From assembly GCF_024300825.1 (NCBI RefSeq), contig NZ_CP101323.1, positions 1 through 64,000 of the forward strand: a DNA stretch of 64,000 nt. Reading direction: 5' to 3'. The notes below the pieces were generated by a model. It was not told where the DNA came from. It searched no databases and saw only the letters and a program-made list of their open reading frames with translations. Origin of the DNA: Natronomonas gomsonensis (GTDB lineage Archaea; Halobacteriota; Halobacteria; Halobacteriales; Haloarculaceae). Shown piece after piece: positions 35,827-63,096 of the stretch; positions within the stretch are counted from its first letter, which is position 1, and every line of letters begins with the position of its first letter. The translations under genes were made by a program, and so were the position numbers.

Positions 35827-35922
35827 AGTCTGTTGACCACGGCCAGCAGAGTAAGTGTGAGGGTCGCCGGACTGTCGGCGGTAAGCCGAAGCCTCAAACC
35901 CTCCCGCCTGCTACCCGGAGTC

Positions 35923-50533: not shown

Positions 50534-51079
50534 ATGAGCACCCAGAAGACCACTCGTCAGCAGGCCGACACCGTCGAGGAGAACGCGCTTCGACTCGACA
50601 CCGAGAAAGCCGAACAAATTATCGACGCGCTGAACACCGACCTCGCGGACGCGTACGTCCTCTATCACCAACTCCACAAGCACCACTGGAACGTCGAGGG
50701 CGCAGAGTTCCTCGACATCCACGTGTTCCTCCAAGAGGTGTACGAGGACGTCGAAGACGCCGCCGACGAACTCGCCGAGCGCCTGCAGGCGCTGGGCGGC
50801 GTTCCGCACGCCAGCATGACGACGCTGGCCGAGAACGCCACCGTCGAAGCCGAAGACGAGGACGTCTACGACATCCGAACGTCGCTGGAGAACGACCTCG
50901 AGATGATGGGCGACATGATCGAGAGCTACCGGCAACACATCGAGTTGGCCGACGGCCTCGGCGACTACGCGACCAGCGAGATGCTCCGCGAACAGCTCGA
51001 AACGCTCGAAGAACACACCCACCACATCGAACACTACCTCGAAGACGACTCGCTCGTCCTCGAATCCGCGACGAAGTAA
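50534..51079 (+). CDS. dpsA: DNA-protecting ferritin-like protein (Dps)
   Basis: A 181-aa Dps. The inter-subunit ferroxidase residues appear in H-K-H-H-W-N-V-E-G (about 48-56) and in D-I-H-V-F-L-Q-E-V-Y-E-D (61-72). A long helical bundle follows, with H-T-H-H-I-E-H-Y at the C-terminus. Twelve subunits store iron and consume hydrogen peroxide, protecting DNA. AT-rich sequence (ataaattataag) before the start forms the promoter. A weak half iron-box (ttttagg near 50461) lies upstream. The place next to the iron regulon fits its role. Confidence 0.92.
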   Translation: MSTQKTTRQQADTVEENALRLDTEKAEQIIDALNTDLADAYVLYHQLHKHHWNVEGAEFLDIHVFLQEVYEDVEDAADELAERLQALGGVPHASMTTLAENATVEAEDEDVYDIRTSLENDLEMMGDMIESYRQHIELADGLGDYATSEMLREQLETLEEHTHHIEHYLEDDSLVLESATK

Positions 51080-51089
51080 CGCCGACTGA

Positions 51090-51386
51090 CTATCGAACGT
51101 CGGGTGCCGACTCGTCGCTTCGTCCCGGAATCTCTACCTCGATTTCTAACTCTTGGTCACCGACGCCGTCGAAGTCGATTTCGACGTCGACCGGCTCACC
51201 GAAGGCAAACGGGAGTTCCCACTCCTCGTCGACGAGCGTGAGTTCGTCGCCGTCTCTGAGTTGTTCTCCCAGCGCTATCAGAAACTCGCCGGCTTCCTTC
51301 GAGTCAAGGCGGTATTCGGTTTCGAACGCCCGACCCGCCCGAATCGTCGTCCGCTCGTCCTCGGTAGCTGAGTCAGAATCGTCCAC
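51090..51386 (-). CDS. amphi-Trp domain protein
   Basis: A 98-aa acidic protein. The middle L-D-S-K-E-A-G-E-F-L-I-A-L-G-E-Q-L-R-D-G and W-E-L-P-F-A-F-G-E-P-V-D-V-E-I-D-F match the amphi-Trp domain seen in haloarchaea. The start follows the zinc-binding gene by 6 nt, so both are probably read from the promoter with the iron box at 51568. Role unknown. Confidence 0.75.
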   Translation of the reverse strand: MDDSDSATEDERTTIRAGRAFETEYRLDSKEAGEFLIALGEQLRDGDELTLVDEEWELPFAFGEPVDVEIDFDGVGDQELEIEVEIPGRSDESAPDVR

Positions 51387-51392
51387 GAGTAC

Positions 51393-51560
51393 TCACCGTC
51401 GAACGTCGACCGTCAAGTCACTCGCAATCCAGCCGTCGTTGTTGTCCGTTTCGATGAACACGGACTTGCCGGGACAACTCTCACACTGGCACACATCGGG
51501 TCTGGAGTCGGCGTCGGAATCAACGCGCCGTTCCGAACGCCGCCGGGCACGCGCCGTCAT
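51393..51560 (-). CDS. small zinc-binding protein under an iron box
   Basis: A 55-aa protein from ATG 51560. The basic start T-A-R-A-R-R-R-S-E-R is followed by C-Q-C-E-S-C-P-G-K-S-V-F-I-E, a compact three-Cys cluster suited to metal binding. A further ATG at 51578 would fall inside the operator, so 51560 is preferred. The inverted repeat tttagg-taca-cctaaa starts 8 nt upstream, so metal-dependent repression is likely. First gene of a pair with the amphi-Trp gene. Confidence 0.62.
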   Translation of the reverse strand: MTARARRRSERRVDSDADSRPDVCQCESCPGKSVFIETDNNDGWIASDLTVDVRR

Positions 51561-51567
51561 TACCTGA

Positions 51568-51583
51568 TTTAGGTACACCTAAA
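51568..51583. promoter_or_regulatory. DtxR-type iron box
   Basis: Inverted repeat tttagg-taca-cctaaa, same pattern as four other sites at 58.7 and 63.0 kb. It lies at the promoter of the small zinc-binding gene. Confidence 0.75.
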
Positions 51584-51605: not shown

Positions 51606-52007
51606 TCAACGCTCGCCCGCCTCGCTTGCCGTCGCGACCGGCTCCGAATTCGCAGTATCACCCAACAGCGTCACGGCCAGTCGCTCGGCGACGGCCGGAC
51701 TGACACTCCCGGCCATCCGCATCGCCTCGGCTTCCGAGTCCTCCAACCCGAGTACCTCCCGAAAGAACTGCGAGAGCGTCCGGTAGGTGTCGTGCAACTC
51801 CTCGGCGGTCTCCTGTCCCTCGTCAGTCAGCGTCGCTCCTTCGTAGGGTTCGTGGACCACCAGCCCGTCGGCTTCGAGGCGCTGGAGCATCTCGGTCGTC
51901 GCCGCCGGCGACTTCTCCAGTCTCTCGGCGAGTCGCCCCGGCGACACCGGGTGGTCGTCACCACCCTCCATGTAGATAACGAGGAGATACCGCACGGCGC
52001 TCGCCAT
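51606..52007 (-). CDS. DtxR-family metal-dependent regulator
   Basis: A 133-aa protein from ATG 52007, placed 1 nt after the stop of the 46-aa gene. The N-terminal winged helix has P-V-S-P-G-R-L-A-E-R-L-E-K-S-P-A-A-T-T-E-M-L (about 20-41). The dimer/metal part has F-F-R-E-V-L-G-L and M-R-M-A-G-S-V-S-P. In IdeR/MntR this last motif reads with E-H metal ligands, here replaced by A-G, so its metal site differs from the classic one. It is the last gene of the receptor operon and a candidate binder of the TTAGG-N4-CCTAA boxes. SirR/Idr-like. Confidence 0.82.
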   Translation of the reverse strand: MASAVRYLLVIYMEGGDDHPVSPGRLAERLEKSPAATTEMLQRLEADGLVVHEPYEGATLTDEGQETAEELHDTYRTLSQFFREVLGLEDSEAEAMRMAGSVSPAVAERLAVTLLGDTANSEPVATASEAGER

Positions 52008-52008
52008 C

Positions 52009-52149
52009 TCAACGACCACCCTCCGTGGATTCGCCAGAGGCATCAGACTCCTCGTCAGCCACGCCACCCTCCGAATCCGACCCGAACAGCGCCAGATACA
52101 GCCACGCTTTCGTCCGACCGCGCTGTTTGCGAGGTCCCGAGTCGGTCAT
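52009..52149 (-). CDS. 46-aa small protein in the iron operon
   Basis: Reads M-T-D-S-G-P-R-K-Q-R-G-R-T-K-A-W-L-Y-L-A-L-F, then an acidic Ser/Glu/Gly tail. Its ATG overlaps the previous gene's stop by 4 nt (ATGA), and its stop is 1 nt from the DtxR ATG, so it is firmly within a coupled operon. A basic start plus a short hydrophobic patch suggests an anchor or a partner peptide. Function unknown. Confidence 0.6.
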   Translation of the reverse strand: MTDSGPRKQRGRTKAWLYLALFGSDSEGGVADEESDASGESTEGGR

Positions 52150-52949
52150 GCGCGTCTGGTGAGATGGTCGCGAACGGTTCGTTGACACTCAGTACATATC
52201 GCGTCGAGGCGAGCGGCCGCCGACAACTCCGGAAACGTGGTCGAACGCTCCTGTGACAAGTACGCAACGAGCGACCGATGTGTGAGGCCCGTTTTCGCTC
52301 CCTCGCTCGTCGTTCGGTCGAGTACCGCCTGTCGGTCTGTAGCGACCGTTTCACACCGATTTCGGTGGGTTTCGAGCCGCTCGTGGCGCTCCCGAAGCGC
52401 CTCGAAACCGAGTACCGACAGTGGCCGTTCGTCGGCCGCATCGAGCCACTCACACGTCCCTTCCAGTCGTTCCAACGACTCGCCCAGTGACTCCCGCTCG
52501 ATGTCGAGAGCGCGCTCCATCGCCCGCAGCTCGGCCTGTCGTTGCTCGACAGCACTGTGAATCGACTGCTGGACCTCGGCCGTGAACTGTCCGGGTGTCG
52601 AGGGGTCCAACACGGCCGCGATGCCCTCGCCCAACTCCTCGCTCATCGTTGCCGTGAGCGGCTCCGACTCCTCGAGGTCGGCCACGCTGTAGGGGCGGAC
52701 GGTCTCTTCGAACAGCGACCGAACCTCCTCGGCCTCTGCAGTCGCCGGCCCTTGCTGTACTGTTGGCGCCGCTGGCGTCACCTCGCCAGTGGCTGGTACG
52801 CCGCCACCGCCGTTCGGAAGCGACGCCGGGTCGAGGGCTCGGACCTCGGCGTCGAAGCGCTCGAAAGCCCTCGACGTGGCTTCGACGTGTGCCACCTCCT
52901 CGTCGACGCGGTCGATGGCCGCCCGAATCGGGTCGATGATTCCGCTCAC
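52146..52949 (-). CDS. helical (coiled-coil) protein of the iron operon, unknown
   Basis: A 267-aa protein. The GTG start at 52949 overlaps the stop of the previous gene (GTGA) and has gagggg-type Shine-Dalgarno sequence 5 nt upstream. An upstream open frame is not used. It is nearly all helical, with A-A-I-D-R-V-D-E-E-V-A-H-V-E-A at the start and long Glu/Arg heptads (Q-R-Q-A-E-L-R-A-M-E-R-A-L-D-I-E-R). A C-terminal C-T-E-C pair lies near residue 253. No signal or membrane helix. I do not recognise a function. Confidence 0.7.
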   Translation of the reverse strand: MSGIIDPIRAAIDRVDEEVAHVEATSRAFERFDAEVRALDPASLPNGGGGVPATGEVTPAAPTVQQGPATAEAEEVRSLFEETVRPYSVADLEESEPLTATMSEELGEGIAAVLDPSTPGQFTAEVQQSIHSAVEQRQAELRAMERALDIERESLGESLERLEGTCEWLDAADERPLSVLGFEALRERHERLETHRNRCETVATDRQAVLDRTTSEGAKTGLTHRSLVAYLSQERSTTFPELSAAARLDAICTECQRTVRDHLTRRA

Positions 52950-53857
52950 GGACACCCCTCCGTTGACACGCAAGCGAGGCCGCCGACACGCCCCGTCGTG
53001 TTCGTCTCGATGGACAGCCGCCACGACCCCGACCCTTCGACACGCTCTGCGCCCGAAATCGTCACCGACCGCGTCGCCAACCGGTCGAACAGCTGCACCA
53101 CCAACGGCAGCGTCACGACCCGACCCGGCGTCCCGTCGAGACTGTACCCCTCGATGCACACCGTCCACGACCGCGATTCGCCACCCGAGGCTGCCGAACA
53201 CCGCTCGATGCGATAGTCGTCGACGAGTCCGACCGCCTCCAGTGAATCCAGCGTCTCCGCGAGCGGTTCGGGCGCCAAGACGCCACCGTCGTCGCGTGGC
53301 AAGTTCGCCGCCGCCTCTCGTAGGACCGCCGCTTGTTCCTCGGGCGCCAACCGCTCGTCGAGTTCCGTCGCGATGCTTTCGAGCAGTCGCAGACAGAGTT
53401 CGTCGGGTGATGCGACCGCCTCGGCGGCGTCGAGATACGTGTCCATGATAGCGTCCTGTAAGTCGCCGTGGGCCGACCCGGCGATGGCCTCGAAGACGAC
53501 GCTGGCGACGGTGTGACAGAACTCGATAGCGTCCGTTCCTCCGCGTTCGGGCGGCGTCGGCGGCAACTCACGCGTTCGGTCGGCCAGTGGCGTCCCGTCC
53601 GACGCTTCCCAGCCCGGCAACTCCTCGCGAACGATGATGTCGCGATACGAGACTTGCGGGTCGTATCGTCGAAGCGTCGCCCGGTACTGTTCGGTCGCCT
53701 GTGCGGCCGCGCGGGCGCTCGCTCGACTGTCGAAGGCCAACTCGTCGGCCGGGACCGGCCGACACCCCGTCCGCGCGCAGGCGACGTAGTAGCGGCCGTC
53801 CTCGCTGGCGAGCGATTCGATGTGGTCGCGAATGTCGCCCAGTGTCGTTCCTATCAT
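52946..53857 (-). CDS. two-part protein of the iron operon, unknown
   Basis: A 303-aa protein. Residues 1-75 (I-G-T-T-L-G-D-I-R-D-H-I-E-S-L and Y-V-A-C-A-R-T-G-C-R-P-V-P) look like a small separate domain with two Cys. The middle is helical (about 105-210), and the end is a beta-rich domain with S-W-T-V-C-I-E-G-Y. It overlaps the next gene by 4 nt. The pair appears to be a conserved haloarchaeal gene set, but I cannot name the family with confidence. Iron-linked by operon only. Confidence 0.68.
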   Translation of the reverse strand: MIGTTLGDIRDHIESLASEDGRYYVACARTGCRPVPADELAFDSRASARAAAQATEQYRATLRRYDPQVSYRDIIVREELPGWEASDGTPLADRTRELPPTPPERGGTDAIEFCHTVASVVFEAIAGSAHGDLQDAIMDTYLDAAEAVASPDELCLRLLESIATELDERLAPEEQAAVLREAAANLPRDDGGVLAPEPLAETLDSLEAVGLVDDYRIERCSAASGGESRSWTVCIEGYSLDGTPGRVVTLPLVVQLFDRLATRSVTISGAERVEGSGSWRLSIETNTTGRVGGLACVSTEGCP

Positions 53858-53903
53858 GGTTGGTCTCTCCCAGTGGGTTGTTCAGGTGGGCTCTCCTGTC
53901 GGG

Positions 53904-54077
53904 TCAGCGACGCACTTTCGTCGGGTTCTCGGCGGTGATGAACGGCTCGCCGCCCTCCTCGGCGAAGGCGAGGCTGCCACATTCCAGTCGGCAGACCTCC
54001 CAATCCGGCAGCGCCGGAATACCGTAATCCTCTGGCTCGCGGTAACAGCCCGCGATGGCCCACGTCCGCGCACGCAT
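53904..54077 (-). CDS. 57-aa protein of the iron operon
   Basis: Starts M-R-A-R-T-W-A-I-A-G-C-Y-R-E-P-E-D-Y-G and contains D-W-E-V-C-R-L-E-C-G-S-L-A-F, three Cys in total. Its ATG directly abuts the TGA of the receptor gene at 54078 (TGAATG). Coupling to the receptors makes it real although short. It may bind metal through the Cys. Function unknown. Confidence 0.6.
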   Translation of the reverse strand: MRARTWAIAGCYREPEDYGIPALPDWEVCRLECGSLAFAEEGGEPFITAENPTKVRR

Positions 54078-55226
54078 TCAGACATCACCGGTGACGATAT
54101 CCGCGACGCGCTGGCGGTCGAACAGCTCTTCGTCGGCGCCGAACGTCTCGGGATATATCCCGCGGGCGGCCCGTTCGAGTTGGAACAGGTGGAGTATCGG
54201 CCCCTGATACGTCAGCCCGCTGTAGAACACCCTGCCCTCCTGGACTGCCGTCAGTTCGCTGGCTACGTCGTGGTCCTCGAGATGCGAGCGAATCTCGCGG
54301 TCGAAGTACGCGTCGGTGATTTCGCCCTGGATGCGAACGGCGATGGCGTCGGGGTCGATGTCCAGCAGCGTCTCGAAGTCGATGGTGCCGCCGTCGACTT
54401 GGGCGTCCGTGACGCCGTTGGTCGCCAGCGCGTCGCCGACTTCGAGGTCGCGGAACTGCTTCGATTGAAAGCCCTCGCCGACGAGATACGGGTAGAACGA
54501 CTCCGGCGGCATCTCGGCGGGGTACAACACCGCGATGTCCGGGGACTCCGACGGAAGACGGTCCTGTACATCTCCAAGAACCTCGTCGTGAAGTTCGTCG
54601 AAGGCCTCGTAGCGGCCCCGCTCGTCGAAAAGCTCGGCCATCTTCTCGAAGGCCTCGTACATCGAGTAATACCGATAGTCGTCGTGCCAGTCGTACACCC
54701 GCGTGAAGCCGGTGTTGCCGACCAACGGGGCGACGTTGTCGCGTATCTCCTCGACGTCGGCCTCGCTCACCCCGAGGCGGTTGACCATGAAGTTCGGGTC
54801 GACGACGTTGACATCGGGGTCGAGTTCGTAGAACACCTCCTTGTCGGTGCCGTCGTTCCACAGTTGGGTGAGCGCCTTGTCGTCGACGGCAACGCCCGGC
54901 AGTTCCTCGTAGTAGTGGGTGCCGAAGCGGGCGCGAACCCCGATAGCTTCGAGGCCATCGGCCTGTCCCAAAGCGACGCCCATGTCGGCGTAATCGCCGG
55001 TGTAGGCCAGCCACTGTTCGGGCACGGCGTCGAACTCGACGGTGCCGACCGGCTCCATCGTCACCGAATGGCCGTCGTCAGTGTTCGGCGGCTCCTCGTC
55101 AGCCGTCCCCGTTGAACCGTCGCCGACACAGCCGGCGACCAATCCGCTCCCGACGAGGGAGGTGCCGTACTTGATGGCGTCTCTGCGCGTCGGTGCTGTC
55201 TGTCGAATCGTCTCGTCGTCGCTCAT
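54078..55226 (-). CDS. iron/siderophore ABC receptor lipoprotein (copy 4)
   Basis: A 382-aa substrate-binding protein. Tat motif T-R-R-D-A-I-K-Y-G and lipobox L-V-A-G-C (C33), so it is exported folded and lipid-anchored outside. Then a two-lobed periplasmic-binding fold of the FecB/FhuD type (T-M-E-P-V-G-T-V-E-F-D start, Y-Y-E-A/S-M-Y-E-A-F-E-K linker helix). The N-terminus is acidic. It is the fourth of four tandem paralogues, 2 nt after its neighbour. It probably hands ferric chelates to the permease at 59783. Confidence 0.87.
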   Translation of the reverse strand: MSDDETIRQTAPTRRDAIKYGTSLVGSGLVAGCVGDGSTGTADEEPPNTDDGHSVTMEPVGTVEFDAVPEQWLAYTGDYADMGVALGQADGLEAIGVRARFGTHYYEELPGVAVDDKALTQLWNDGTDKEVFYELDPDVNVVDPNFMVNRLGVSEADVEEIRDNVAPLVGNTGFTRVYDWHDDYRYYSMYEAFEKMAELFDERGRYEAFDELHDEVLGDVQDRLPSESPDIAVLYPAEMPPESFYPYLVGEGFQSKQFRDLEVGDALATNGVTDAQVDGGTIDFETLLDIDPDAIAVRIQGEITDAYFDREIRSHLEDHDVASELTAVQEGRVFYSGLTYQGPILHLFQLERAARGIYPETFGADEELFDRQRVADIVTGDV

Positions 55227-55228
55227 CG

Positions 55229-56365
55229 TTAGCTCTCTCCGTTGATGATGTCTGCCACTCGCTGGCGGTCGAACAGTTCGCCATCGAACCGCGAGGGGAA
55301 GTACGCCGTCGCGTACCGCTCTAGCATGAAGAGGTTGTGCAGCGGCCCGCAGTAAATCGGGCTGCCGCGGAACACCCGCCCCTCTTGGACGGCCGTCAAC
55401 TGACTCCCAACGTCGTGCTCGCGCATGTACGCCAGCGTCGTCTCCTCGAACTCCTCGCGCGTCTTGTTGCCGTGATACCGGAGCAACAGCGAATCGGGGT
55501 CGATTTCCAACAGCGTCTCGTAGTCAACCGACTGCGACCCCGAATAACCCTCGACCTTCGTGCCTTCGAAGGCGTCGTCGATACCCAGTGTGTGGAAGTG
55601 CTCCTTGTTGGCTCCCATTCCCGAGACCCGATACGGCGCGAAACTGTCCGGTTCGTCGCCGGCGAACAGCAGCGCACCATCTGGTCGCTCCTCGGCCGGT
55701 GGGAGTTCGGCCTCGATTTCGGCGACCACCTCGCTGTGCAGCGACTGAATCGCCTCGAACCGCTCGCGCTCCTGAAACACCGCGGCGACCTTCTCGAAGG
55801 CTTCGTACAGCGTGTAGTACCGGTAGTCGTGCCACTCGTCGGTTCGCCGGAAGATGAGGTTCCCGAGGAACGGCGCGACGTTCGTCTCTATCTCCTCGAT
55901 GTCCTCGGCCGGCCAATCGTCGAGCCAGTTGGTCAGCGAGTGAGGGTCGATGAGGTGGAGGTCGGCATCGATTTCGTACAACAGCTCCTTCGAGATGCCG
56001 TCGTTCCACAGCGGCGTGAGTCGGTCCGTGTCGATGCCGACATCGGGGAGTTCCTCGTAGTGTCTCGTCTTGTACCGGTTCTGATACCAGACCGTTTCGG
56101 CCGCGTCGGCCTGCCCCAACGCGACCATCATATCGATGTAATCCGGGGTGAACGGCGCGACGGTCTCCGGAACTCCGTCAAACTCGACGGTCCCGACCGG
56201 TTCCATCGTCACCGAGTAGCCGTCCGATTCTTTGGCCGGCGTCGATTCGGGACTGTCATCTGAGCTGTCGCCGGCCGTACAGCCCGCCAACAGGCCGCCG
56301 GCGGCGACGGCACTACCGTACTTGATGGCGTCTCTGCGGGTCGGTCCGGTGGTGTCATCACTCAT
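55229..56365 (-). CDS. iron/siderophore ABC receptor lipoprotein (copy 3)
   Basis: A 378-aa paralogue. Tat motif T-R-R-D-A-I-K-Y-G and lipobox L-L-A-G-C with C29, followed by D-G-Y-S-V-T-M-E-P-V-G-T-V-E-F and R-Y-Y-T-L-Y-E-A-F-E-K-V. Variable parts lie where the ligand cleft would be (Y-Q-N-R-Y-K-T-R-H-Y and R-V-S-G-M-G-A-N-K), so its ligand probably differs from the others. 2 nt spacing on each side. Confidence 0.87.
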   Translation of the reverse strand: MSDDTTGPTRRDAIKYGSAVAAGGLLAGCTAGDSSDDSPESTPAKESDGYSVTMEPVGTVEFDGVPETVAPFTPDYIDMMVALGQADAAETVWYQNRYKTRHYEELPDVGIDTDRLTPLWNDGISKELLYEIDADLHLIDPHSLTNWLDDWPAEDIEEIETNVAPFLGNLIFRRTDEWHDYRYYTLYEAFEKVAAVFQERERFEAIQSLHSEVVAEIEAELPPAEERPDGALLFAGDEPDSFAPYRVSGMGANKEHFHTLGIDDAFEGTKVEGYSGSQSVDYETLLEIDPDSLLLRYHGNKTREEFEETTLAYMREHDVGSQLTAVQEGRVFRGSPIYCGPLHNLFMLERYATAYFPSRFDGELFDRQRVADIINGES

Positions 56366-56367
56366 GT

Positions 56368-57558
56368 TCAGATGTCTCCGTTGATGATGTCCGCAAGTCG
56401 CTGGTGGTCGAACAGCCGCTCGCTTTCGTCGAACACGGGATAGGTATCACCGTTCTCGTAGCGTGGCCACGCGCCGAACTGCTCGGGATACAGTTGCTTG
56501 GCGGTCATCTCCATCTGGAAGAGGTTCATCAACGGCCCCTGCCACCGCGTTCCCTGGACGTACACCCGGTCGTTGTTGACGGCACGCAGTTCGCTGCCGG
56601 CGGGGTCGTCTCGGAGGTTTTGTACCATCGCCTCGAAGCCGACGGCGTCGGTGACCGTCCACAGCGCGAGTATCGCGTCGGGGTCGGCCTCCAGCAGCGC
56701 CTCCATATCGATCTGTTTGAACGCTCCGTCCCACTGTTCGTCACCGAAGGCGTCGACAGCACCGAGCGGTCGGCTGTGGGCGTTGAAGTAGCCGGGGGCG
56801 TTCAACCGAAGCAGGTAGATGGCCGAGAGGTCCGTCGAAATCGAGAGATACGCCACGGTCGGTCGGTCCGATTCCGGCGGCCGCTCACGTTCTATCGTTT
56901 CGAGCATGTTCTCCCGAACGGACGCAAGGGCCTCGTATCGCGATTGCTCCCCGTAAAGCGTCGCGACTCGCTCGAACAGCTCCCACAGCTCGTAGTACTC
57001 GTAGCCGTCCGCCCAGTCGTCAGGCGGCGTCGCGTGGAAGTTGCTGTAGTAGTTCCCGAGCCACGACCCGACGTTGTTCGTGACCTCGTCGATATCCGCC
57101 CGTGTCCAGTTGTCCTGTGTCGTCACCCATGCCGGGTCGACGAGATGGAGGTCGCTGTCGAGTTCGTACACCTGCTCTTTCGTGAAGCCGTAGGACTCAG
57201 TTTCGTCCCGCCACGGGATGTCGACGCCCTCGAGGTCGGAAGTGAAGTACTCCAGCGTCGAGGCGGTTCCGTCCCACCAGACGTTGTTGATGCTGTCACC
57301 CTGCCCGAGTGCCGTCGCCATGTCGGCGAACCACGGGAAGTGGGTGAACACGTCGGTCGGTGGCTCCTCGAGCGTCACGTCACCGACCGGTGACATCTCC
57401 ACCGAGTACGAGGTTTCGTCGGGGCTGTCGGTCCCTTCAGGCGTGTCCGGGTCGCCGTTACCGGTACAGCCAGCCAACAGTCCCCCGCCGACGACTGCGC
57501 CGCCGTACTTCACGATATCGCGTCGTGTCGATGCCTTGACCGTGGTGTCGTTCGTCAT
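56368..57558 (-). CDS. iron/siderophore ABC receptor lipoprotein (copy 2, most divergent)
   Basis: A 396-aa paralogue, the longest and least like the rest. Tat motif T-R-R-D-I-V-K-Y-G and lipobox L-L-A-G-C with C31. The cleft-side segments carry many aromatic residues (N-N-V-W-W-D-G-T-A-S, Y-Y-S-N-F-H-A-T-P-P-D-D-W), and Y-E-Y-Y-E-L-W-E-L-F replaces the usual Y-Y-T-L-Y-E-A-F. This suggests a distinct ligand. Positioned second in the four-receptor run. Confidence 0.87.
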   Translation of the reverse strand: MTNDTTVKASTRRDIVKYGGAVVGGGLLAGCTGNGDPDTPEGTDSPDETSYSVEMSPVGDVTLEEPPTDVFTHFPWFADMATALGQGDSINNVWWDGTASTLEYFTSDLEGVDIPWRDETESYGFTKEQVYELDSDLHLVDPAWVTTQDNWTRADIDEVTNNVGSWLGNYYSNFHATPPDDWADGYEYYELWELFERVATLYGEQSRYEALASVRENMLETIERERPPESDRPTVAYLSISTDLSAIYLLRLNAPGYFNAHSRPLGAVDAFGDEQWDGAFKQIDMEALLEADPDAILALWTVTDAVGFEAMVQNLRDDPAGSELRAVNNDRVYVQGTRWQGPLMNLFQMEMTAKQLYPEQFGAWPRYENGDTYPVFDESERLFDHQRLADIINGDI

Positions 57559-57560
57559 TG

Positions 57561-58718
57561 TCAGAACTCCCCGTTGATGATGTCCGCCACGCGCTGGCGG
57601 TCGAACAGCTGTTCGTCGCTCGTTACCTCGCCGAACTCCCCGGGGTACAGTTGCTGAGCGGCGCGTTCGGTGAGGAAGAGGTTGTGAATCGGCCCTTGAT
57701 GGAGGTAGCCGCCGCGGTAGACGCGGCCCCCTTGGACGGCCTGCAGTTCACTCGCCACGTCGTGGTCCTTCATGTACGCGAGAACGGTGTCGCGGAACTC
57801 CGTGGCGGACTTCCGCTCGTGGCCGCGGACGAGGATGACCTCGGGGTCGATTTCGAGGAGGTTCTCGTAGTCGAGTTCGCCGCGGTCGGTCGTGCTGAGG
57901 TTGTCGATGTCGGTGCCGGCGAGGGCGTCGGTGACGCCGAGGTCGTTCCACTGCTTCTTGCTCGTGCCCTTGTCATTGAGGCGGTACGGCGAGAACGTCG
58001 CGGGTTCGTTCGTCCCCTCGAAAGTGAGGAAGACGTTCGGCCGCTCGTCGGCCGGCGGCAGGCGGCTCTGAATCGACGCGATGAACTCGTCGTGGAAGGC
58101 CGCAAACGCCTCGTATCGCTCCGTCTCGTCGAAGGCCCTCGCGACTTTCTCGAAGGCCTCGTACAGCGTGTAGTACCGGTAGTCGTGCCACTCGTCGGAG
58201 CGCCGGAAGATGAGGTTCCCGAGGAACGGGGCGACGTTCGTCCGGATTTCCTCGACGTCGGCGTCGCTCCAATCGAACCAGTTGCGCAACATCCCGGGGT
58301 CGTAGAGGTGGAGGTCGCTGTCGAGTTCGTAGAACTCCTCTTTCGTTCGGACCTCGGGATTGGCCTCGATGGTCTCGCGGTCGACCGAGACGCCTGGCAG
58401 TTCGTCGTAGACGTACGTGTAGTAACGGTCGGCGCCACCGACGCCGGTCAGGCCGTCGGCCTGCCCCAACGCGACGGCCATGTCGGCGTAGCCGCCGTCG
58501 TAGGCCGCCCACTGTTCGGGGACCGATTCGAAGCTTACCTCGCCCATCGGCGCCATCTCGACGGTGTAGGCGTCGGTGTCGTCGTCCCCCTCCGATTCCT
58601 CGGCGGGTTCGGTCTCACCAATACAGCCGGCGAGCAAGCCGCCGACTGCGACGGCACTGCCGTATTTGATGGTGTCTCTGCGCGTCGGTCCCCCGCGTAT
58701 CGCGTCGTCTCTGGACAT
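57561..58718 (-). CDS. iron/siderophore ABC receptor lipoprotein (copy 1)
   Basis: A 385-aa paralogue and first gene of the operon. Tat motif T-R-R-D-T-I-K-Y-G and lipobox L-L-A-G-C with C32. The body has E-M-A-P-M-G-E-V-S-F, D-L-H-L-Y-D-P-G-M-L, the linker R-Y-Y-T-L-Y-E-A-F-E-K-V and V-I-L-V-R-G-H-E. The ATG lies only 2 nt from the 18-bp palindrome at 58721-58738, so transcription is probably leaderless and blocked by the iron regulator. Confidence 0.88.
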   Translation of the reverse strand: MSRDDAIRGGPTRRDTIKYGSAVAVGGLLAGCIGETEPAEESEGDDDTDAYTVEMAPMGEVSFESVPEQWAAYDGGYADMAVALGQADGLTGVGGADRYYTYVYDELPGVSVDRETIEANPEVRTKEEFYELDSDLHLYDPGMLRNWFDWSDADVEEIRTNVAPFLGNLIFRRSDEWHDYRYYTLYEAFEKVARAFDETERYEAFAAFHDEFIASIQSRLPPADERPNVFLTFEGTNEPATFSPYRLNDKGTSKKQWNDLGVTDALAGTDIDNLSTTDRGELDYENLLEIDPEVILVRGHERKSATEFRDTVLAYMKDHDVASELQAVQGGRVYRGGYLHQGPIHNLFLTERAAQQLYPGEFGEVTSDEQLFDRQRVADIINGEF

Positions 58719-58720
58719 GG

Positions 58721-58738
58721 TTTTAGGCTAGCCTAAAA
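58721..58738. promoter_or_regulatory. iron box, perfect palindrome
   Basis: ttttaggctagcctaaaa is a perfect 18-bp palindrome next to the first receptor's ATG, with an AT-rich box (ttataatat, minus strand) just upstream. It matches the TTAGGCTAGCCTAA type known for IdeR/DtxR-like regulators. Confidence 0.85.
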
Positions 58739-58756: not shown

Positions 58757-58774
58757 TTTTAGGTTGGCCTAAAA
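58757..58774. promoter_or_regulatory. iron box, second site
   Basis: ttttagg-ttgg-cctaaaa, centred 36 bp from the first site. The centre differs but arms are perfect. Two sites 36 bp apart allow paired binding around the promoter. Confidence 0.8.
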
Positions 58775-58842: not shown

Positions 58843-59781
58843 TCACCACCGTGCCTCCCCTTCGGTCGACTCCTTCGCCTCAACCGCGTCCGCGTCGTCT
58901 TCGTCCTCGTGTCGGGCGCGAAGCGGTGTGATTCGCGGTCCGCGGTCGGTCGGCACCACCTCGGCGTCGACGCGGAACACCTCCGCGAGCAGCTCCTCGG
59001 TGACGACGGCTTCGGGCGGTCCGCGGGCCTGAATTTCGCCGTCCTTGAGGGCGACTACGCGGTCGGCGAGTCGCGCCGCCTGCTCGATGTCGTGGAGCAC
59101 GACGACGACCGTGATGTCGCTGTCCGCCCGCAGCGTCTCGATTATCTCCATCACTTCCAGTTGGTGATGGAGGTCGAGGAACGTCGTCGGCTCGTCGAGC
59201 AACAACACATCGGTGTCCTGGGCGAGCACCATCGCAATCCACGCCAGCTGCTTCTGGCCGCCGCTGAGGCTGCCGACCTCCCGGTTTCGGAGGTGTTCAC
59301 AGCCGGCCAACTCGATGGCCCGGTCGACCGCTTGTTGGTCTTCCTCGGTGACGTGTTCGAAGAAGCCGCGGTGGGGATACCGGCCGTGATACACGAGGTC
59401 CTCGACGGTGATGGAGTCGGGTGAGGTGCTCTCTTGGGAGAGCAAACCGAGCTTTCGGGCGAGTTCCTTCGTCCCCATCGAGTGGACATCGCGGCCGTCG
59501 ACCAACACCGAGCCGTCGTCGGGGTCGAGTTGCTTCGCCAACCCCTTCAGGAGCGTGCTCTTCCCGGACCCGTTGGGGCCGACCAGCGCCGTCACCGCTC
59601 CCGGTTCGGCGACGATACTCTCGCCGTCGACGACCGGGTCCTCCATCGTGGGGTACCCCAGCACCAACCCCTCGCCGGCGAGGTCGCTCGCTCCGCCTTC
59701 GGGGGCGTTCGATGTCGGGGTGTCGTCGACAGCGTCTTCGCTTCCGTCCGAGTGTCGTAGCGAACCGACGTTGAACACCAT
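58843..59781 (-). CDS. iron/siderophore ABC transporter ATPase
   Basis: About 312 aa, starting at ATG 59781 right after the permease stop, although an upstream GTG is possible. Walker A G-P-N-G-S-G-K-S-T, signature L-S-G-G-Q-K-Q-L, Walker B V-L-L-L-D-E-P-T-T-F-L-D-L and switch His (V-L-H-D-I-E-Q-A) are all present. The FepC-type V-Y-H-G-R-Y-P-H-R-G segment confirms the siderophore/cobalamin group. It drives uptake through the FecCD permease, and both lobes act as dimers. Confidence 0.9.
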   Translation of the reverse strand: MVFNVGSLRHSDGSEDAVDDTPTSNAPEGGASDLAGEGLVLGYPTMEDPVVDGESIVAEPGAVTALVGPNGSGKSTLLKGLAKQLDPDDGSVLVDGRDVHSMGTKELARKLGLLSQESTSPDSITVEDLVYHGRYPHRGFFEHVTEEDQQAVDRAIELAGCEHLRNREVGSLSGGQKQLAWIAMVLAQDTDVLLLDEPTTFLDLHHQLEVMEIIETLRADSDITVVVVLHDIEQAARLADRVVALKDGEIQARGPPEAVVTEELLAEVFRVDAEVVPTDRGPRITPLRARHEDEDDADAVEAKESTEGEARW

Positions 59782-59782
59782 T

Positions 59783-60904
59783 TCAGATTTCACCCATGTT
59801 CTGCTTCTTCCGCATCAGATACAGGAAGTACGGCCCTCCGACCAGCCCGGTGACGATGCCGACCGGTATCTGGACGGGGTTCAACGCGAGACGGGCGCCC
59901 ACGTCGGCGCCGACCATCAACGCCGGGCCGACGAACAGACAGCCGACGATGACTTTCTTGTAGTCGCTGCCGACCAGATTCCGCACAACGTGGGGGACGA
60001 TGAGGCCGACGAAGCCGACGATGCCCGCCACCGCGATACTGGCGGCGGCGGCCAACACGGCCACGCCCGAGAGCGCGAAGCGGACCTTCTCGATGGACAT
60101 CCCCAGCGACTTGGCGGTCCGCTCGCCCAGCAACATCACGTTACACTGCCGGGCGCCGACGACGGCCAACAGGATGGCGACGACCGACCACGGCAACACC
60201 AGTCGAACCTGCGCCCAGTCGGTGCCGGTGAGCGACCCGGTCGTCCACGCGATGGCCGACTGGACGATGCCGATGTCGTCGGCGAAGAAGAACAGCGCCG
60301 TCTGGAGACTGTTGAAGACGGTGCCGACGATGACGCCAGCCAAGACGAGTCTGACCGGCGAGGTGCCGTTCTTCCAGGCGATTGCGTAGACGATGAGAAA
60401 CGCCGTCGCGCCGCCGGCTGCGGCGATGAGCGGCAGGAACGCCGACAGCCCACCGAACACCACGAGCGTCAACAGAATCATCAGTCCAGCCCCGGAGGAG
60501 ACGCCGAGGATGAACGGACTCGCCAGTTCGTTGCGCGTGACGGCCTGAAAGATGGCGCCCGAGACGGCGAGGTTCATCCCGACGATGATGCCGACGAGCA
60601 CGCGCGGTAGCCTGATGTTCCAGACGATGAGGCTCTCGGTGCTCATCTCCGGCAGTTCGCCACCGAGCAGGAAGGCGTTCCACGCCTGTGCGTTGAACAG
60701 TACTTGTGGGTCGAAGACCGCTCCCCATGCCTGTGCGAACGTCATCGAGTAGGCGCCGAAACTCACCTGTACGAGACCGCCGAGGACAACGACAACGAGG
60801 CTTCCGGCCGCGGTAGTCAGCAGTTTCGGGTCGAACAGCCACGCGAACCGACTGCTCCGGCGGCGCTCGCTCGGTCGTCCAGATTTGACGGATTCACTGC
60901 TCAT
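59783..60904 (-). CDS. FecCD-type iron-siderophore ABC permease
   Basis: A 373-aa permease from ATG 60904, which overlaps the previous gene by 11 nt. About ten helices. The family motifs R-L-P-R-V-L-V-G, N-E-L-A-S-P-F-I-L-G-V-S-S-G-A-G and G-L-I-V-P-H-V-V-R (near the end) are present. Only one permease gene exists in the window, so it would act as a homodimer and serve all five receptors. Confidence 0.9.
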   Translation of the reverse strand: MSSESVKSGRPSERRRSSRFAWLFDPKLLTTAAGSLVVVVLGGLVQVSFGAYSMTFAQAWGAVFDPQVLFNAQAWNAFLLGGELPEMSTESLIVWNIRLPRVLVGIIVGMNLAVSGAIFQAVTRNELASPFILGVSSGAGLMILLTLVVFGGLSAFLPLIAAAGGATAFLIVYAIAWKNGTSPVRLVLAGVIVGTVFNSLQTALFFFADDIGIVQSAIAWTTGSLTGTDWAQVRLVLPWSVVAILLAVVGARQCNVMLLGERTAKSLGMSIEKVRFALSGVAVLAAAASIAVAGIVGFVGLIVPHVVRNLVGSDYKKVIVGCLFVGPALMVGADVGARLALNPVQIPVGIVTGLVGGPYFLYLMRKKQNMGEI

Positions 60905-61856
60905 TACGGACCCCCTCTGGCTGGTCGCTGTGGTAGGCACGAATTGTCTCGTCGTCGATTGCTTCCAAGAGCGCCTTTTCACCGATTCCGTCCACGACGG
61001 CGTCGGTGTCGAGTGCCGACGCGAGCGCCTCATGACCCGATGTCCCACGCGCGTCGATTTCCGCGTCGGTCAGATACGTTTCCCGCTGGGCGTCGATGTA
61101 GGCGTCCCTGACGCGCTCGAAGCGGTCTTCGCCGGGGTCGACTGGCGCGTCGTCGCCGTAATATTCCTCGAACCACTCGACCCACTGCTCTCGGTCGGTC
61201 CACTCGCCGTCGAGACTGGTCGCCCGCCGCATCCAGTCTTTGTGGTCTGCGGCCTCGGGCCACCAACCGTCGTCGAGTCTGCTGTCGGCGACGACGCGAT
61301 GGGCGACCCGCGCGCCCCGACCGGCGGCCATGATGGCCTGTTTGTCGGCGACCGTCGCGGGGGAGGCGACGTACAGCCCCTCGATTGGCGTCGTTCCGTC
61401 TGCGTCGGCGTACTCGCGGTCGAAGCGCTCGGTCGTCTCCTCGCCGTGGTCAATAGTTTCGAACATCGCTTCGTCGTCGCCGAGGCCACGCAGGTACTCG
61501 CCGTCGTATCTGGTCGCCGCGACGACCCGTCTCGCGGTTACGGACCCACTCTCCTGTGGGACGACGACCAAGCCCTCGCCATCGGGTTCGACCGACTCGA
61601 CGAGGTCCGAGCGGAGGTCACACCCCGCCGCTCGGATGTGGTCGTGCATCAACTCGTAGAACGTCTCGACATCGATGCCGTCGGGGAAGCCGAGGTAGTT
61701 CTCTAGGTAGGCACACTTCCGGATGGACGACCGGCCCCGGTCGAAGACGACGGTGTCGAGTTCCTCACGGGCGAGGAAGACGGCGGCCGAACACCCAGCG
61801 GGGCCACCGCCGACGACGGCCACATCGTAGTCGACGGTCGAACTCACCGCCGACAC
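60894..61856 (-). CDS. FAD-dependent oxidoreductase in the iron operon
   Basis: A 320-aa protein. The FAD motif V-V-G-G-G-P-A-G-C-S-A-A-V-F-L lies at residues about 14-28, and a later G-L-Y-V-A-S-P-A closes the FAD site. It looks like a shortened thioredoxin-reductase relative, but has no C-x-x-C, and the NADPH domain is poorly visible. The last ~110 residues are an added helical acidic part. Between receptor and permease genes, it may reduce ferric siderophore or repair a thiol. The role is inferred. Confidence 0.75.
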   Translation of the reverse strand: MSAVSSTVDYDVAVVGGGPAGCSAAVFLAREELDTVVFDRGRSSIRKCAYLENYLGFPDGIDVETFYELMHDHIRAAGCDLRSDLVESVEPDGEGLVVVPQESGSVTARRVVAATRYDGEYLRGLGDDEAMFETIDHGEETTERFDREYADADGTTPIEGLYVASPATVADKQAIMAAGRGARVAHRVVADSRLDDGWWPEAADHKDWMRRATSLDGEWTDREQWVEWFEEYYGDDAPVDPGEDRFERVRDAYIDAQRETYLTDAEIDARGTSGHEALASALDTDAVVDGIGEKALLEAIDDETIRAYHSDQPEGVRNEQ

Positions 61857-61900: not shown

Positions 61901-63040
61901 CTACTCCTCACCGGTGACGATGGCCGCGAGTTCCCCACGGTCGAACAACTCCCCGGAGTACGCCTCGGGGAAGTACCCCGTCGCGTAGCGTTCGAGGAGG
62001 AACAGGTGATGCAGCGGCCCGGAGTAAATCGGCCCGCCGCGGAACACCATGTCGTTTTGGACGGCCGTCAACTCCGAGGCCGTCTCGTGGTCTTTCATGA
62101 ACGCGAGGACGGTGTCTTCGAACTCCGCGCGGCTCTTGTTCTCGTGGCCGCGAATCAGGATGGAGTCGGGGTCGACCTCGAGCATCGTCTCGTAGTCGAT
62201 TTGGCCCCGCTCGGTCGTCGAAAGCCCCTCGATTCCCGTGTCGGCGAGTGCGTCGGTGATGCCGAGGTCGCGGAACTGCTTTTTGTTCGTCCCTTGGTCG
62301 CTCACGCGGTAGGGGTAGAAGGCCTCGGGCTCGTTTGCGGCGGCGAAGGTCAACAGTGCGTTCGGCCGGTCGTCGGCCGACGGGAGGTCGGCCTGAACGT
62401 CGGCGAGAACGTCGTCGTGGAACTGCTTGAGTTGGGTAAACCGCTCCTGCTCTTGGTAAATCTTGGCGACCTTTTCGAAGGCCTCGTACAGCGTGTAATA
62501 CCGGTAGTCGTGCCACTCGTCGGTCCGGCGGAAAATCGTGTTCCCGATGAACGGCGCGACGGTGTTGCCGACCTCCTCGATGTCGCTTTCTTCGAGTTTG
62601 AACGCGCTGTTGTTGATGAGCCACTCGGGGTCGATGAGATGGAGGTCCCCGTCCAGTTCGTAGAAGAGTTCTCTGTCGATGCCGTTGTCGCTCAGTCGCG
62701 TCAGCGACTCCGCGTCGACGCTGACACCGTTGAGTTCCTCGTAGTGGGTGGTGTGGTACCGCGAAGGCAGCCCCATCGAGAGAATCGAGTCGCCGTGGCC
62801 CAACGCGACGGCCATGTCGCCGTAGTCGGGGAAGTAGTGGACGACACGCTCCGGGGCTTCCTCGAATTCGACGGACCCCACCGGCGCCATCGTCACCGAG
62901 TACTTCCCCTCGGTGTCCGCACCGGAGTAGCCGACGTTGTCGGTACACCCCGCGAGAAGTCCACCGCCGAGTGCCGCCCCGCCGTACTTGATGGTGTCTC
63001 TCCGTGTCGGTGCCGCGTCGCGCCACGAATCGTTCGCCAT
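61901..63040 (-). CDS. iron/siderophore ABC receptor lipoprotein (copy 5)
   Basis: A 379-aa paralogue that heads the transporter operon. Tat motif T-R-R-D-T-I-K-Y-G, lipobox L-L-A-G-C with C32, then S-V-T-M-A-P-V-G-S-V-E-F, D-L-H-L-I-D-P-E-W-L and R-Y-Y-T-L-Y-E-A-F-E-K-V. An iron box lies 4 nt before the ATG. It is followed after 44 nt by the oxidoreductase, permease and ATPase, so this is the transporter's own receptor. Confidence 0.9.
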   Translation of the reverse strand: MANDSWRDAAPTRRDTIKYGGAALGGGLLAGCTDNVGYSGADTEGKYSVTMAPVGSVEFEEAPERVVHYFPDYGDMAVALGHGDSILSMGLPSRYHTTHYEELNGVSVDAESLTRLSDNGIDRELFYELDGDLHLIDPEWLINNSAFKLEESDIEEVGNTVAPFIGNTIFRRTDEWHDYRYYTLYEAFEKVAKIYQEQERFTQLKQFHDDVLADVQADLPSADDRPNALLTFAAANEPEAFYPYRVSDQGTNKKQFRDLGITDALADTGIEGLSTTERGQIDYETMLEVDPDSILIRGHENKSRAEFEDTVLAFMKDHETASELTAVQNDMVFRGGPIYSGPLHHLFLLERYATGYFPEAYSGELFDRGELAAIVTGEE

Positions 63041-63044
63041 GTGG

Positions 63045-63060
63045 TTTAGGCTTCCCTAAA
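63045..63060. promoter_or_regulatory. iron box before transporter operon
   Basis: tttagg-cttc-cctaaa, 4 nt before the receptor ATG at 63040. Same N4-spaced pattern as the sites at 58.7 kb. Confidence 0.8.
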
Positions 63061-63080: not shown

Positions 63081-63096
63081 CTTAGGTGGGCCTAAA
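63081..63096. promoter_or_regulatory. iron box, second site before transporter operon
   Basis: cttagg-tggg-cctaaa, centred 36 bp from the first site, the same centre-to-centre distance as the pair at 58721 and 58757. One outer base does not pair. Confidence 0.7.

Follow-up and report, generated by a model that had tools for sequence, protein, structure and literature searches.

The locus at positions 58718 to 51606 in the first 64,000 nucleotides of the Natronomonas gomsonensis contig NZ_CP101323.1 (this whole stretch is referred to as the window) raises the question whether four genes of unassigned function, enclosed by genes for receptor lipoproteins and a DtxR regulator, take part in iron uptake or in its regulation. 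Comparison of promoters and gene neighbourhoods across haloarchaea suggests that they do: membership of the protein families DUF7551 and DUF7260 in an iron-starvation regulon is well supported, and the locus is a real, conserved iron-starvation operon of known general kind. It comprises nine genes on the minus strand:

57561..58718, minus strand, receptor lipoprotein 1 with Tat (twin-arginine translocation) motif and lipobox (Peripla_BP_2, E = 1.1e-17)
56368..57558, minus strand, receptor lipoprotein 2 (Peripla_BP_2, 1.2e-13)
55229..56365, minus strand, receptor lipoprotein 3 (Peripla_BP_2, 3.5e-15)
54078..55226, minus strand, receptor lipoprotein 4 (Peripla_BP_2, 1.9e-13)
53904..54077, minus strand, 57-aa conserved small protein with the pattern MRAREWxIA...PFIxAExPVxVRR (13 homologues)
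52946..53857, minus strand, 303-aa DUF7552+DUF7551 protein (Pfam, 1.1e-33 for DUF7552 and 2.5e-63 for DUF7551)
52146..52949, minus strand, 267-aa DUF7260 protein, long-helix coiled coil (Pfam, 1.1e-66)
52009..52149, minus strand, 46-aa conserved peptide (about 20 homologous loci)
51606..52007, minus strand, probable Idr-type DtxR regulator of 133 aa without metal ligands (Fe_dep_repress, 5.7e-14; ligand table and tree)

All nine genes lie where the first-pass annotation, made from the sequence alone, had placed them. Their successive junctions of 2, 2, 2, 0, 46, −4, −4 and +1 nt agree with the tight coupling and the single 46-nt gap (between the genes for the 57-aa and 303-aa proteins) described there. 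Transcription as one unit is probable from this layout, but the segment is only the middle one of three co-oriented units (63040-58843, 58718-51606 and 51560-51090) that carry the same operator. The four predicted receptors all combine a Peripla_BP_2 domain (E values of 1e-13 to 1e-17) with a Tat motif and lipobox (TRRDxxKYG...AGC in the translations), as expected for FecB/FhuD-type lipoproteins. The label "unknown" for the four genes downstream holds with respect to function; however, the 303-aa protein (DUF7552, residues 5-79; DUF7551, residues 111-299) and the 267-aa protein (DUF7260) belong to Pfam families already described, with scores well above the gathering cut-offs (213.9 vs 52.6 bits for DUF7551, 115.8 vs 27 for DUF7552 and 225.2 vs 27 for DUF7260).

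In front of each of the three units stands the palindrome TTAGGNNNNCCTAA, either singly or as tandem copies spaced 36 bp apart:

63082..63095, operator 2 of unit 1, TTAGGTGGGCCTAA (exact match)
63046..63059, operator 1 of unit 1, separated by about 5 nt from the receptor start and spaced 36 bp from operator 2
58759..58772, operator 2 of unit 2, TTAGGTTGGCCTAA (pattern match)
58723..58736, operator 1 of unit 2, TTAGGCTAGCCTAA, separated by about 4 nt from the start codon and spaced 36 bp from operator 2
51569..51582, operator of unit 3, TTAGGTACACCTAA (pattern match)

An exact pattern search of the 3.65-Mb genome retrieved ten TTAGGNNNNCCTAA sites, of which five belong to this locus, four are located at 81-89 kb (within 26 kb of the locus) and one stands alone at 3.38 Mb. 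Nine of the ten are thus confined to 37 kb, where they precede receptor, iron-type ABC (ATP-binding cassette) transporter and small-protein units. None of 20000 random placements of ten sites was as tightly clustered. Within the window, six sites are found against 0.41 expected from shuffled sequences if one mismatch is allowed. With its tandem sites at 58723 and 58759, the nine-gene unit carries in its promoter the palindrome that marks the haloarchaeal iron regulon.

Relatives of DUF7551 are present in 197 of 292 haloarchaeal genomes. Their neighbourhood was surveyed at 81 loci with long flanks (80 from other genomes and the one in the window), with genes called by a codon-bias script and clustered by BLAST, so that counts may err by a few. 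FecB, FecC or FecE genes are located within 7 kb of 41 of these loci and absent from the remaining 40. In 29 of the 40 transporter-free cases, an exact operator precedes the start of DUF7551 by at most 200 nt, as compared to 21 of 1020 control transcription-unit starts on the same contigs (about 2 %); the corresponding Fisher value of 3e-34 overstates independence, since the species are related, though the genera are many. Several of the other 11 transporter-free loci have the operator 430-850 nt upstream. Since the operator accompanies most transporter-free copies, the link to iron appears to be regulatory and not merely positional. The tie of the unknown genes to metal uptake and its control, originally drawn from layout, would have been accidental if these genes mostly occurred apart from metal genes elsewhere; it survives this comparison, as about half of them do, yet mostly under the operator.

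The gene order likewise recurs in other haloarchaea. Immediately preceding DUF7551 on its strand, a FAD (flavin adenine dinucleotide) oxidoreductase gene is found at 15 and a receptor gene at 14 of the 81 loci, and DUF7260 follows downstream at 31 loci, with a 4-nt overlap in 23 of them. The coupling of DUF7551 with DUF7260 is found in at least 14 named genera, and a plasmid of Natribaculum longum displays the order FecE-FecB-FAD-FecB-FAD-DUF7551-DUF7260-46aa-Idr. A role of the unknown genes as receptor chaperones, suggested earlier, is not supported, since the pair occurs without receptors nearby. A regulator-modulating complex, another of the earlier suggestions, may exist; the pair is, however, also present in near-complete genomes lacking an Idr-type DtxR (e.g., G052 and G064) and therefore cannot serve the Idr-type regulator alone. 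A literature search retrieved no paper naming DUF7551, DUF7552 or DUF7260.

The regulator encoded at the end of the operon is a DtxR homologue as annotated (PF01325, helix-turn-helix, 5.7e-14; PF02742, dimerisation, 1.7e-7), but two aspects of its description as the operon's own DtxR regulator require revision. Judged by homologue starts, translation probably begins at ATG 52007 (133 aa) and not at GTG 52067. Moreover, the MntR ligands D8, E11, H77, E99, E102 and H103 are replaced by R, L, Y, M, A and G (the MntR reference sequence agrees with the aligned PDB chain over the stretch shown), and the protein hence falls outside the metal-ligand pattern of DtxR/MntR. Among 39 collected close relatives, 38 form one clade (support of 99 in the SH-like approximate likelihood ratio test), while the 39th (Halococcus, L064) falls into the sister group. 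All 38 clade members lack H77, E99, E102 and H103; at position 8, one has D and nine have E, with the other ligands missing. The SirR-type paralogue of the same genome has retained D, H, D, E and H at five of the six ligand positions. The clade is therefore predicted to be metal-blind in the sense of having no canonical metal site, a loss of ligands that may already be known.

The subfamily is found in 48 of 145 genomes (matches at about 1e-28 or better), and a weaker DtxR paralogue (1e-15 to 1e-24) in all 145. The latter also lacks H77 and H103 and displays a conserved C-terminal CPDCFDxxxDxC tail in 20 sampled sequences; this tail could be a cysteine-based Fe or Fe-S site. Its assignment to TroR follows from a published primer flanking HVO_0863 (PMC6801745), for which exact matches are present in three Haloferax genomes, at a distance of about 0.5 kb from the gene of the universal paralogue. 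The DtxR proteins listed for Haloferax volcanii are Idr, SirR and TroR (PMC11349517), and the FeoA-domain type has been described as SirR (PMC11218638); with the TroR and SirR types thus assigned, elimination leaves Idr for the window protein. In Halococcus thailandensis (L064 4286-4774), a TroR-type paralogue with Cys-tail follows DUF7551-DUF7260-46aa at the usual place of the Idr-type gene.

The operator also persists upstream of DUF7551 in genomes without the Idr subfamily (G052, G064 and G104), so that another regulator must read it and Idr is not needed. TroR is likely to be the main reader. The recognition-helix core SPAxxxEM is common to the Idr and TroR types (the SirR type is without it), and Idr may therefore bind the same or related sites.

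The 303-aa protein, the nearest retrieved relative of which is 97 % identical and from a Natronomonas, contains residues C114, H115, E123, E146 and C155 that are invariant in 51 DUF7551 sequences; D139 is nearly so. In the AlphaFold2 model (mean predicted local distance difference test score of 85.6), all of them reside in the helical part of DUF7551, which is followed by a strand-strand-helix-strand-strand arrangement. One may guess that this C-H/E/E/C cluster represents an iron or iron-chelate site. DUF7260 is modelled as long helices (score of 87.2). Searches against the PDB yielded no homologue of the 303-aa protein by sequence or profile, and no significant match for DUF7260 apart from chance coiled-coil matches. 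The 57-aa protein has 13 further homologues, mostly adjoining FecB/FAD genes, and no Pfam match. It had been termed a Cys protein, which suggested Cys-based metal sensing; its cysteines are not conserved among the homologues, and it was rejected as a Cys metal protein. The 46-aa family is likewise without Pfam match; its members, found at about 20 loci, combine the motif RQRAxAWAWVYxALFG with an acidic tail and are encoded immediately in front of the DtxR gene.

Published expression data from H. mediterranei support the view that operons of this type are regulated jointly with iron uptake. Its plasmid pHME505 carries, in this order, a receptor gene (E6P09_17310) preceded by tandem operators 36 bp apart, a truncated receptor gene (17315), a region with a C-terminal DUF7260 remnant and the 46-aa peptide, and an Idr-type gene (17320). 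In a denitrification RNA-seq study in which iron was not varied, E6P09_17310 and 17315 changed by log2 fold-changes of −3.2 and −4.1, respectively, together with siderophore biosynthesis genes (PMC11218638). In this region of pHME505 (L233 13438-14004), the Idr-type gene is intact, while only a C-terminal part is left of DUF7260 and the second receptor is shortened.

From these features, we infer the following biochemical roles for the operon products. Under iron sufficiency, a DtxR-family repressor, most likely TroR, would occupy the tandem TTAGGNNNNCCTAA operators and keep 58718-51606 switched off, and iron shortage would release the repressor and switch the operon on. The four Tat lipoproteins, as alternative ferric-chelate receptors, would then feed the FecCE transporter and the FAD reductase encoded by the neighbouring unit under the same control, whereas the cytosolic DUF7552/DUF7551 protein and the coiled-coil DUF7260 protein would form an accessory module handling iron after import. 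The Idr-type protein, devoid of metal ligands, may exert metal-independent feedback at these or related operators, whether by damping the induced operon or by heterodimerising with TroR. In H. volcanii, TroR reportedly has the leading role in iron regulation and represses idr, as would be expected in such a circuit.

The scheme as a whole, i.e., a TroR-type-controlled operon of receptors, a DUF7551/DUF7260 iron-handling module and metal-independent Idr feedback, is held with evenly balanced confidence. Several points weigh against it: (i) transporter genes are missing within 7 kb of about half of the DUF7551 loci; (ii) a weak internal promoter could reside in the 46-nt gap; (iii) the regulator is identified as Idr type by elimination only and not by a sequence match to HVO_0538; (iv) the repressor that reads the operator is only presumed to be TroR; (v) operon induction and operator binding in this organism are predictions from sequence; and (vi) the C/H/E/C cluster of DUF7551 may instead be structural.

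Different explanations for the DUF7551/DUF7260 pair have to be weighed against this scheme. The pair could act as a general stress or starvation effector, e.g., an iron-sparing RNA- or protein-binding factor, which is merely driven by the operator and does not itself interact with iron, receptors or Idr. In Natrinema and Natrialbaceae, the pair also stands alone behind the operator, beside unrelated genes; this, together with partial fold matches to ribosomal protein S24e (about 77 columns), speaks for such an effector; the repeated direct adjacency to receptor and FAD reductase genes in many genera renders it unlikely, though not negligible. That the unknown genes are mere hitchhikers in a receptor operon, devoid of an iron role, could be read from the half of the loci without nearby transporter gene, but is strongly disfavoured, the operator upstream of standalone copies being far more frequent (29 of 40) than in the background (about 2 %).

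Alternatively, DUF7551 may have replaced the lost metal sensor of Idr, sensing iron or a ligand and signalling by protein contact to the metal-blind regulator; DUF7260 would serve as the coiled-coil transmitter, and the adaptor would be the 46-aa peptide. This would agree with loss of the canonical ligands in all 38 Idr-type proteins, with the invariant C/H/E/C residues of DUF7551, with the frequent position of DUF7260 and the 46-aa gene directly upstream of Idr (4-nt or 1-nt junctions), and with co-occurrence of the Idr type and DUF7551 above expectation (p = 6e-7, not corrected for phylogeny). It is nevertheless rather improbable, considering that the pair exists in genomes without Idr type (e.g., G052 and G064) and that five of the 48 Idr-type genomes lack DUF7551. 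That operon-encoded partners control a DtxR protein devoid of metal sensing, which would amount to a haloarchaea-specific multi-protein iron-signalling relay, is a doubtful proposition. A haem- or gas-sensing function was considered due to the best Foldseek match of DUF7551, the H-NOX domain of T. tengcongensis (E = 4.8e-4, probability 1.00; soluble guanylate cyclase is lower in the list), and the similar order of helices and strands. However, template modelling scores of 0.31 (query) and 0.45 (target) at a root-mean-square deviation of 7 Å stay below 0.5, the profile comparison with haloarchaeal H-NOX-like/V4R proteins failed (hhalign probability of 0.2-0.3 %), no PDB sequence matched, and no invariant His is present in the helix corresponding to the haem-ligand helix, i.e., the proximal haem His is absent. 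H-NOX membership was therefore rejected, and sensing of this kind is very improbable. Some genomes encode several copies of haloarchaeal V4R/H-NOX-like proteins that start with MHGI.

Participation of DUF7551 and DUF7260 in iron handling, as in the proposed scheme, is the preferred reading. Their assignment to the iron-starvation regulon gives two Pfam families widespread in Halobacteria a first testable function class. Furthermore, annotation of any DtxR protein as metal-dependent transcriptional regulator presupposes conventional metal sensing; this appears to fail for the Idr-type clade, and what this clade senses is a question that can be addressed in Haloferax.

The flanking units and a convergent gene contain:

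61901..63040, minus strand, fifth FecB/FhuD-like Tat lipoprotein receptor, unit 1 (Peripla_BP_2, 1.5e-25)
60894..61847, minus strand, FAD-dependent pyridine-nucleotide oxidoreductase, unit 1 (Pyr_redox_2, 1.4e-7; gene call)
59783..60904, minus strand, FecCD-type permease, unit 1 (FecCD, 1.5e-87; gene call)
58843..59781, minus strand, FecE-type ATPase, unit 1 (ABC_tran, 9.8e-32; best NCBIfam model FecE, 5.1e-79, below its cut-off)
51393..51560, minus strand, 55-aa DUF7331-like small protein, unit 3 (Pfam, 0.0034, below cut-off)
51090..51386, minus strand, 98-aa Amphi-Trp domain protein, unit 3 (Pfam, 1.7e-5, just below cut-off)
50534..51079, plus strand, Dps/ferritin-like iron-storage protein, convergent (Ferritin, 7.6e-33)

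The Dps/ferritin-like gene is a recurrent neighbour of Idr-type genes (DpsA in Natrinema), and several genera share unit 3, with its own operator and its 55-aa CxC..C and Amphi-Trp proteins, as a neighbour of Dps and Idr-type genes. The operators at 81386-88879 of the genome contig precede genes for a Tat solute-binding protein, an ABC permease, and reversibly-glycosylated-polypeptide-like and glycosyltransferase-like proteins; together with the window, this group constitutes an iron-regulon island. On the plus strand (35833-38625), the window also harbours a 930-aa UDP (uridine diphosphate)-sugar dehydrogenase-like open reading frame with an apparent intein-like insertion. PADLOC yielded no matches to defence systems, and a defence reading was rejected on this ground; no match indicating phage origin (PHROG) was found, and Rfam revealed no RNA element or riboswitch in the region.

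The first-pass annotation had regarded the operon as the best candidate for an undescribed system. This is too strong, since the locus represents a haloarchaeal iron/siderophore uptake regulon with uncharacterised members and a presumably metal-blind Idr-type regulator. With the known haloarchaeal iron regulon it shares the expansion of FecB/FhuD receptors (11 paralogues in H. volcanii), the FecCD permease, the FecE ATPase and the palindromic operator in front of operons; it differs by DUF7551, DUF7552, DUF7260 and the 57- and 46-aa proteins, which were not found described as members. The fold likeness of DUF7551 to the H-NOX domain is weak, without haem-ligand His or sequence similarity. The regulator has its DtxR domain pair (PF01325 and PF02742) in common with MntR of Bacillus subtilis and DtxR of Corynebacterium diphtheriae, but unlike in these proteins the MntR ligand set is replaced. 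The same domain pair is present in Idr of H. volcanii (HVO_0538) and Idr1/Idr2 of Halobacterium (PMC11349517), and likeness to this type extends to the adjoining Dps and iron uptake genes and to the presence of the clade in Haloferax. TroR of H. volcanii (HVO_0863) represents the sister clade, with a similar recognition-helix core and likewise without H77 and H103 of MntR; it differs from the Idr type, which is tail-less and restricted to 48 of 145 genomes, by its CPDCFDxxxDxC tail and its presence in all 145.

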